From Solidesulfovibrio magneticus RS-1 (lineage in GTDB: Bacteria > Desulfobacterota > Desulfovibrionia > Desulfovibrionales > Desulfovibrionaceae): a stretch of 64,000 nt of DNA. Position 1 is the stretch's first letter; each line of letters starts with the position of its first letter. The position numbers and the translations under genes were made by a program. Shown piece by piece: positions 19,323 through 50,570 of this stretch. Below the pieces are notes generated by a model that was not told where the DNA came from, searched no databases, and saw nothing but the letters and a program-made list of their open reading frames with translations. The stretch covers positions 4,364,001 through 4,428,000 of the forward strand of contig NC_012796.1 of the NCBI RefSeq assembly GCF_000010665.1, written 5' to 3'.

Positions 19323-19341
19323 TAGGCAGGAGGCATCAGCA

Positions 19342-19662
19342 ATGCAAATACTTATCGTGCTCTCCAGCCCCGAGCCCGAGATCAAATGGAACGCCGTGCG
19401 TTTCGGCAACTTCCTGCTCAACGAAGGCGAGGACGTCACCATCTTCTTAAATGGCCCGGCCGTGGACCTGACCGCCGGCGACAGCCCGACCTTCCCCATC
19501 GCCGAGCAGGCCAAGCTTTTTGGCTTAAGCGAAGGCGTGCTCGCCGCCTGAGGCAAGTGCCTGGGCCTCCACGGCGTGGAGGCGAAAGCGCCGGTGACCC
19601 TGTCCAATATGCCCTTCCTCTACGCGGCCATGAAGGCCGCCGACCGCATCCTCAATTTCTAG
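19342..19662 (+). CDS. DsrE-like selenoprotein (Sec encoded by in-frame TGA at 19549)
   Basis: Starting at ATG 19342 (AGGAGG, 8-nt spacer), the frame hits TGA at codon 70 and then stays open for 36 codons to TAG (19660-19662), with about 33 of 36 third positions G or C. The joined 106-residue protein has the DsrE beginning MQILIVLSS and the ending AADRILNF. Where relatives carry the reactive cysteine it reads VLAA-U-GKC, a UxxC redox motif. A perfect hairpin with G at the loop start lies 13 nt after TGA, as expected for a bacterial SECIS. Sec-containing DsrE-like proteins have been described from deltaproteobacteria. A plain stop giving a 69-residue product would remove the active site and is less likely. 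Confidence 0.85.
19552..19592 (+). promoter_or_regulatory. SECIS-like hairpin directly after the in-frame TGA
   Basis: GCCTCCAC (19565-19572) pairs perfectly with GTGGAGGC (19576-19583) around loop GGC. The loop starts 22 nt after the TGA, inside the 16-37 nt window known for bacterial SECIS elements, and its first two bases are G, as SelB recognition requires. Confidence 0.75.
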
Positions 19663-26978: not shown

Positions 26979-28214
26979 ATGCCCGTTGTTTCCCTGTTTC
27001 ACGGCGCGTTTTGCCAGGAAAAAGCCGTGGCCGACGCCCTGGCGGCGGCCGCGAACCTGACCGTCGTCACAGATGATGCCTGCATCCGCCAGGCCGGGGA
27101 GCGCTCGGGCCTGGGGCCGGCCGCCGTGGCCCGGGCCTTTGCCGCCAAGGTCTCGGTTTTTGACCGCTTCACCCACGAAACCAACCAGGCTCTGGCCTGG
27201 CTGCGTCTGGTCCTGGCCGAACGGCTGGCCGAAAACGACGCGCTGCTTTTGGTCGGCGGCTGCGCCCTGCTGCCGCCGCGCGCCATCGGCCACATCCTGC
27301 GGGCCTGCCTGATCGCCGACGCCCCGGCCAGACGCCGTCTGGCCGCCGAGGCCGGCCACGACGCCCAGAGCGCGCGCAAACTTTTGGCCGCAGCCGACGC
27401 CGACCGGGTCGCCTTGGCCGCCCGGGCCACGGGGTCGGCCGATCCCTGGGACCCCATGCTCTTCGACATGGTCCTGCCCATGGACAAGCTGCCCCTGGCG
27501 GCCGCCGTGGACTGCCTCGTCGGGCATCTGGGCGACGCCGCCGTGCAGCCCACCGAGGCCACCCGGGCCGCCGCGGCCGATTTTCTCCTGGCCGCCAAGG
27601 TCCAGACCGCCCTGGCCGCCAAGGGCCACGACGTGCGCGTGGCCGCCCACGACGGGCTGGTGAGCCTCACCATCGAACGCAAGGTGCTGCTGTTGTCGAG
27701 CCTGGAGCGGGAGCTGCGGGCCATCGCCGCCGCCGTGCCCGGCGTGGCCGACGTGCTGGTCAAGGTGGGCAAGGGCTTCTACCAGTCCGACATTTATCGG
27801 CGGGCGGATTTCGACATGCCGTCCCGGGTGCTGCTGGTGGATGATGAGCGGGATTTCGTCCAGACGCTGTCCGACCGCCTGAGCCTGCGCCAGATCGGGG
27901 TCCATGTCGTGTTCGACGGCGAGACGGCCCTGGCCGCCGTGGCCGGGGAGGCCCCGGACGTGCTGGTGCTGGACCTGCGGCTGCCGGGCATAAACGGCCT
28001 CGAAGCCCTGCGCCGGGCCAAGGCCGCCCGGCCCGACCTGGAAGTGGTGGTGCTTTCGGGAGCGGCCGGCCCGGCAGAACGCCAGGCCTGCCTGGCCCTT
28101 GGCGCCTTCGCCGTGCTGGACAAGCCGGCCGACGTCGATGCCCTGGCCGAGGTTCTGCGCCAGGCTGGGAAGAAGGCCAGAGCCAATCAATCGGCGGCCG
28201 CAACCGGGGCGTGA
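26979..28214 (+). CDS. Cytidylate-kinase-like protein fused to a response-regulator receiver
   Basis: The ATG at 26979 follows AAGGAG. Residues 1-195 resemble cytidylate-kinase-like (Cmk2-type) proteins, but the phosphate loop GAFCQEKA is degenerate. A middle BON-like region (about 205-275) precedes a complete receiver (about 282-400; phospho-acceptor D332 in LVLDLRLPG, K about 375). The 411-residue fusion links nucleotide-kinase-like chemistry to phosphorelay input. No adjacent kinase is an obvious partner. The degenerate loop suggests binding rather than catalysis. It is divergent from the Rrf2 gene. Confidence 0.7.
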   Translation: MPVVSLFHGAFCQEKAVADALAAAANLTVVTDDACIRQAGERSGLGPAAVARAFAAKVSVFDRFTHETNQALAWLRLVLAERLAENDALLLVGGCALLPPRAIGHILRACLIADAPARRRLAAEAGHDAQSARKLLAAADADRVALAARATGSADPWDPMLFDMVLPMDKLPLAAAVDCLVGHLGDAAVQPTEATRAAAADFLLAAKVQTALAAKGHDVRVAAHDGLVSLTIERKVLLLSSLERELRAIAAAVPGVADVLVKVGKGFYQSDIYRRADFDMPSRVLLVDDERDFVQTLSDRLSLRQIGVHVVFDGETALAAVAGEAPDVLVLDLRLPGINGLEALRRAKAARPDLEVVVLSGAAGPAERQACLALGAFAVLDKPADVDALAEVLRQAGKKARANQSAAATGA

Positions 28215-50489: not shown

Positions 50490-50570
50490 ATGGGGGGTCT
50501 GGGGGCCTCAGGCCCCCAGCGGAGAGGTCAAGGAGAGGCAGCGCCTCTCCTGGCCGCCGGAGGCACTCCC
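50490..50570 (-). repeat. 3'-end palindromic element, copy J (with inserted hairpin)
   Basis: On the minus strand, GTGCCTCCGGCGGC, then an extra AGGAGAGGC/GCCTCTCCT hairpin, then the GC hairpin and AGACCCCCC. The inserted hairpin makes it the longest copy. It ends 5 nt past the RlmB-type gene stop. Confidence 0.75.

Follow-up and report, generated by a model that had tools for sequence, protein, structure and literature searches.

A predicted DsrE-family selenoprotein of Solidesulfovibrio magneticus RS-1, its selenocysteine codon and its variable partner cysteine

In the sulfate reducer Solidesulfovibrio magneticus RS-1, a reading frame of the DsrE family is interrupted by a TGA codon and then stays open. 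This raises the question of whether the codon ends the protein or is read as selenocysteine (Sec) and, in the latter case, what the residue might do. The frame lies on the forward strand of a 64,000-nucleotide stretch (G000:C2:4364001-4428000) of a 5.3-Mb genome. We call this stretch, whose G+C content is 67%, the window, and positions refer to it unless a contig is named.

The in-frame TGA in the gene and its relatives

The gene extends from an ATG at 19342 to a TAG at 19660-19662, and its 106-residue read-through product would carry Sec at residue 70, encoded by the TGA at 19549-19551. Eight nucleotides upstream of the ATG is a GGAGG resembling a ribosome-binding site (19329..19333). The sole Cys of the protein besides Sec is Cys-73 (codon at 19558..19560), which completes a UGKC motif. 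Ordinary ORF calling (table 11, where TGA is a stop) terminates the frame at 19549. The 36 codons beyond the TGA are open and have G or C at the third position in 33 cases, in agreement with the roughly 90% given in a preliminary description of this locus, whose coordinates for the gene, the TGA and the downstream hairpin also proved exact on rechecking. Between 18600 and 19900, a promoter scan found no promoter, and two terminator-like sites were found where 1.2 were expected.

The preliminary description had counted homologues ending at the TGA position as evidence against a selenoprotein. A genome scan, which may leave out records of the window's own genome, returned 16 relatives that are 46-99% identical, the nearest named one being a Solidesulfovibrio magneticus metagenome assembly (protein 99% identical). 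In every one of them codon 70 is TGA, and the frame stays open beyond it. In a 16-row alignment of the window's protein and 15 relatives, G71, K72, H77, G78 and V79, all 3' of the TGA, are invariant. For a wider set we fetched 111 loci, which gave 115 hit rows and 107 distinct proteins. Codons were inspected in these loci; for phylum and family matches outside them we used only the stop count reported with the match. Defining the window gene's subfamily by the motif U-G-K or U-G-R, we counted 62 distinct Sec members, with the TGA followed by conserved open sequence. They include a fragment (L095) and two apparently decaying copies with an additional TAG each (L078 and L092), the latter also having a second TGA according to its match listing. 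Among the close members fetched, Sec is replaced by Cys in only one (L091), and in relatives that lack the TGA the column holds Cys rather than Trp. On a 103-row tree, which is built from few columns and has 27 open forks, the labels Sec and Cys need at least six changes; this tree and the 61-row tree used below omit rows shorter than 95 residues or with another stop.

The preliminary description had also proposed a search of the genome for selA, selB, selC and selD, the absence of selB/selC counting against its reading. All four were found: SelA at 606.7 bits, SelB at 359.1 bits, SelD at 332.3 bits and a tRNA-Sec at 84 bits, to which ARAGORN assigns the anticodon TCA. Three further tRNA-Sec matches of 48-49 bits, above the cut-off of 47, are probably tRNA-Ser. 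As controls we used 14 known genomes, where selA exceeded its cut-off in one, selB in two, selD in two and tRNA-Sec in five. The SelD gene (G000:C2:2361940-2362866, minus strand, read in L137) itself appears by its sequence to encode a selenoprotein, with a TGA in the motif AAGUAAK.

In a sample of the taxonomic family, 44 of 149 genomes gave matches at E 1e-8, and a TGA lies inside 44 of the 48 matches listed, spanning 42 genomes; in a phylum sample searched at E 1e-5, 77 of 395 genomes matched, and in 64 of these a match contains a TGA. SelA is present in 64/64 phylum genomes with a TGA-bearing match versus 291/331 others (Fisher p 0.0006), and in 39/42 such genomes of the family versus 85/107 others (p 0.04). 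These statistics ignore kinship and rest on genomes sorted by reading listings. Among the family genomes with a TGA-bearing match and no SelA, G124 and G136 are fragmented assemblies that have SelB and tRNA-Sec. In the remaining one, G008 (3 contigs, 95% complete), the member L068 bears the TGA and is equipped with a good SECIS-like hairpin, but the searches gave no match for SelA, none above the cut-off for SelB and a best tRNA-Sec of 47.9 bits, which may reflect either an incomplete assembly or a loss of Sec decoding. Genome G426, in which the single match is a Cys form (L105), does not figure among the selA-positive genomes, nor does its SelB search exceed the cut-off. Within the genus, the gene occurs in 5 of 9 sampled genomes, and because of this patchy distribution we do not consider it central to sulfate reduction.

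A hairpin of the bacterial SECIS type

Bacterial SECIS elements are described as hairpins just 3' of the Sec codon whose small apical loop includes G (PMC1088965, in the portion available to us). A hairpin with these features lies at 19565..19583 on the forward strand, inside the coding sequence. It has a perfect 8-bp stem, GCCTCCAC-GGC-GTGGAGGC, whose three-nucleotide loop at 19573-19575 begins with GG; the stem starts 13 nt 3' of the TGA, and the loop lies 21 nt from it. Taken alone, such a hairpin is unconvincing. A comparable stem follows six distinct TGAs of the 1,233 on both strands of the window, this gene's included. The other five TGAs, at 27310, 48996 and 49217 on the forward strand and at 50530 and 20562 on the reverse strand, likewise precede a perfect 8-bp stem whose loop includes G; by eye we recognised no coding frame across any of them and take them as chance. 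When the codons of this gene were shuffled synonymously, 43 of 300 shuffles were as stable as the native sequence (z -1.01).

A SECIS-like role, as had been proposed from the single sequence, is instead supported by covariation of the stem. We assembled 53 distinct 39-nt segments from the 62 distinct Sec proteins, L078, L092 and L095 included. The inner seven stem positions are paired in 48 to 53 of these segments and the eighth in only 22, while shifted registers of the stem keep only scattered paired positions. The most variable of the inner seven is the sixth pair, formed by the first base of codon 76 and the third base of codon 80, which is paired in 48/53 segments. When one side of this pair was shuffled, a mean of 22.9 segments were paired and none of 10,000 shuffles was as high as 48, a comparison from which kinship was not removed. 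The commonest combinations of codons 76 and 80 are ATC/GAT (19 segments), CTC/GAG (17) and GTC/GAC (4), with others besides; the five unpaired exceptions are ATC/GAA (3) and GTC/GAG (2). It follows from the covariation that Ile tends to accompany Asp, and Leu to accompany Glu, at residues 76 and 80. We regard these pairings, Val with Asp included, as a clean case of an RNA signal that steers the choice of amino acids. Codon usage also bears its mark at Val-79, which is encoded by GTG in 50/53 segments versus 169/369 valines elsewhere in the same genes.

Synonymous shuffling across the family gave a mean z of -1.46 for the 62 Sec members of the subfamily, with only 28 of them below -1.5. The corresponding means are -1.68 for a second group of 25 Sec proteins, mostly UGVC (14 below -1.5), -1.94 for three Sec proteins of unusual type and -0.05 for the 16 proteins with Cys (one below -1.5). 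L091, the sole Cys member close to the subfamily, has a z of -1.2. The loop region contains GGTC in 19 of the 25 proteins of the second group and so resembles the E. coli fdhF element. A search of the window with Rfam returned no match at the gathering threshold among 4,227 families; to our knowledge, Rfam has no general model for the bacterial SECIS, and this null result therefore says little.

These observations bear on whether the TGA is a true stop. In that case the gene would yield a truncated protein of 69 residues, be decaying, or reflect a sequencing error. TGA is indeed a stop in table 11, and this is where ordinary ORF calling ends the frame. However, the identical codon in 16/16 relatives, the conservation of both the protein and the hairpin downstream of it, and the complete Sec machinery in the genome make this explanation very improbable, and we reject a truncated gene or pseudogene because both the TGAs and the protein sequence beyond them are conserved. 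An open and conserved frame beyond the TGA would also be expected if the codon were read without selenium as another residue, e.g., Trp. This is less probable still, since relatives without TGA have Cys at the column, a real tRNA-Sec with anticodon TCA is present, and the hairpin is conserved in Sec members and, on average, not in Cys members; we accordingly reject Trp. The observation stands above chance because the TGA is conserved in relatives and the stem covaries. At the level of sequence, the Sec codon, the conservation of the SECIS, the Sec machinery, the class of fold and the position in the active site are established. We thus predict with high confidence that the gene at 19342-19662 encodes a selenoprotein with UGA codon 70 specifying Sec, and Sec itself is almost certainly inserted at this codon. 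Mechanistically, SelB and tRNA-Sec would decode the UGA, directed by the hairpin 13 nt 3' of it within the coding sequence.

Fold, active site and known relatives

The assignment to the DsrE class, also made in the preliminary description, is borne out by Pfam. Residues 1-106 of the read-through product match DsrE (PF02635) with 31.8 bits against a curated cut-off of 22.7; in the search of the genome with PF02635, the same locus, with one TGA inside, scored 22.7 bits, just at the cut-off. An AlphaFold2 model with Cys in place of Sec has a mean pLDDT of 90.9, and in it residue 70 ends a strand (66-70) and precedes a helix (71-76). The best Foldseek match in the PDB is YchN of E. coli (1jx7, TMq 0.86), followed by DsrE-like proteins and a DsrEFH chain. 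Eight PDB chains have E <= 0.001, of which six are of the YchN/DsrE type, one is a conserved hypothetical protein and one is a designed cage. Both the Pfam score and the fold thus place the protein in the DsrE/DsrF-like family. When the PDB was searched with a 27-row profile, YchN (E 2.4e-7) was the only match within E 0.01. A search with the single sequence returned only pilus-type proteins (best E 0.00095), which we treat as chance.

The 27-row profile aligns Sec-70 with Cys78 of YchN and Cys-73 with Cys81, so that YchN has Cys where the window's protein has Sec. Together with the Cys of distant relatives, this agrees with the earlier suggestion that the TGA falls at the reactive cysteine of DsrE proteins. 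In the DsrE/TusD proteins of DsrEFH and TusBCD, which belong to the same superfamily, the one essential residue is described as Cys78, which carries sulfane sulfur (PMC3397948). According to the part of that work available to us, Cys78 of A. vinosum DsrE binds sulfur and hands it on to DsrC, and the authors postulate that the active site of the whole superfamily lies at residue 78 of DsrE/TusD (PMC3397948). The present protein differs in having Sec at this place and in its surroundings, as none of five scanned neighbouring proteins is of the DsrE type.

That DsrE-like selenoproteins are not a new class, as the preliminary description stated, is confirmed by catalogues insofar as their text was available. 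They are listed with the motif UXXC for the Sargasso Sea in 2005 (PMC1088965), for Desulfovibrio vulgaris in 2006, with no motif given (PMC1794560), as DsrE 1 and DsrE 2 with UxxC in the Global Ocean Sampling data in 2008 (PMC2398784), and as UxxC in reviews (PMC9312934, PMC13188914). The gene is a member of this known class. Compared by published description only, it shares with the catalogued proteins the DsrE domain, Sec in the active site, the UxxC motif, a SECIS element just 3' of the codon and a Desulfovibrio-type host. However, while those descriptions give only UxxC, the relatives of the window gene include UxxL and UxxS forms, and three have no Cys. The passages of text searched yielded no earlier mention of UxxL or UxxS DsrE selenoproteins. 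A DsrE-like part is also shared with YedF (TIGR03527), a protein of selenium metabolism with SirA and DsrE-like domains; membership was rejected, as the profile match is weak (E 0.12) and its 12.2 bits fall far short of the cut-off of 110.

The neighbourhood gives no guidance on function. Among the five neighbouring proteins scanned, none is a dsrF/dsrH or tusC/tusB partner: they are a 124-residue ORF without a Pfam match, an MltA/3D protein, a phosphatase, a PPDK_N protein and a SpoIIE regulator. We also compared 70 subfamily loci, using at most 1.5 to 3 kb of flanking sequence and mechanical, unfiltered ORFs, and found no conserved neighbour that ties the gene to a sulfur pathway. The largest cluster of neighbours, which looks GGDEF-type by eye, occurs at 12/70 loci on either side and strand, and the next-largest clusters track groups of near relatives. 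Other DsrE genes occur in and beyond the window: one of 122 residues at 1959-2327 on the minus strand (PF02635, 46.5 bits) has no TGA and contains the segment CTPCC in the latter half, and a further match lies about 7.6 kb past the end of the window (G000:C2:4435614-4435835, minus strand). Adjacent copies were also seen among the fetched loci, namely UGVC and CGTC copies side by side (L107), a CGTC copy with a neighbouring unusual UKKA copy (L104 and L127) and two neighbouring Sec copies, ULTC and UGAC (L134).

The +3 cysteine and a possible mode of action

Given a Sec residue in the active site, we considered which residues it might act with. The UGKC of the window gene agrees with the UxxC of catalogued DsrE-like selenoproteins, and the preliminary description had called it a redox motif. 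The motif is present in this gene, but it overstates the role of the Cys at +3: of the 62 Sec members, 49 have Cys there, 10 have Leu and 3 have Ser, one of the 13 without Cys (L095) being a fragment. Three complete Sec members (L084, L089 and L090) have no Cys anywhere between the ATG and the stop, and the others lacking the +3 Cys have Cys elsewhere, at matched positions 7, 8, 18, 42, 84 or 105. A quick 61-row tree requires at least five changes of the +3 Cys label, whether gains or losses. Thus, the residue held by selection appears to be Sec, and not a pair of Sec and Cys. This non-conservation is less expected, and it is absent from the catalogue descriptions as far as these were available.

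The same counts bear on the main competing explanation, namely that the protein is a thiol/disulfide oxidoreductase in which Sec-70 and Cys-73 form a selenenylsulfide. Its strengths are the +3 Cys of 49/62 members and the listing of DsrE-like proteins as UxxC in the catalogue descriptions. However, the Leu or Ser found in the 13 remaining members, the repeated changes of the label on the tree and the three complete proteins without any Cys do not fit well with an obligatory partner at +3, and we hold this explanation to be plausible, yet doubtful. For those members that lack the +3 Cys and have a Cys elsewhere, a different redox partner is possible.

Because Sec is kept while the +3 Cys is not, we favor Sec as a lone nucleophile. 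The most far-reaching version of this view, to which we give a probability of roughly 0.45, is that in this DsrE subfamily, which occurs in bacteria of the Desulfovibrio type and their relatives, Sec is the lone redox or sulfur-carrying residue, that the +3 Cys has been lost or regained several times while Sec was retained, and that the protein is a selenium-based carrier of sulfane sulfur (or selenium) and not a UxxC redox enzyme. By analogy with Cys78 of DsrE/TusD, Sec-70, which occupies the position of Cys78 in YchN, would most likely be the single nucleophile that takes up sulfane sulfur (or selenium) and passes it on, with Cys-73 assisting without being essential. The chances that Sec-70 is a lone nucleophile carrying sulfane sulfur or selenium are about even, and a role in sulfur relay may be put at much the same odds.

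A gene caller that ends the frame at TGA leaves out the active-site residue and all that follows it, and members of this family are therefore readily overlooked. If Sec does act alone, the UxxC motif of the catalogues should be revised, and some members would have Sec as their sole chalcogen nucleophile. The family-wide retention of Sec, but not of its partner Cys, offers a direct test of whether Sec performs sulfur-carrier chemistry alone in organisms sustained by sulfur compounds.
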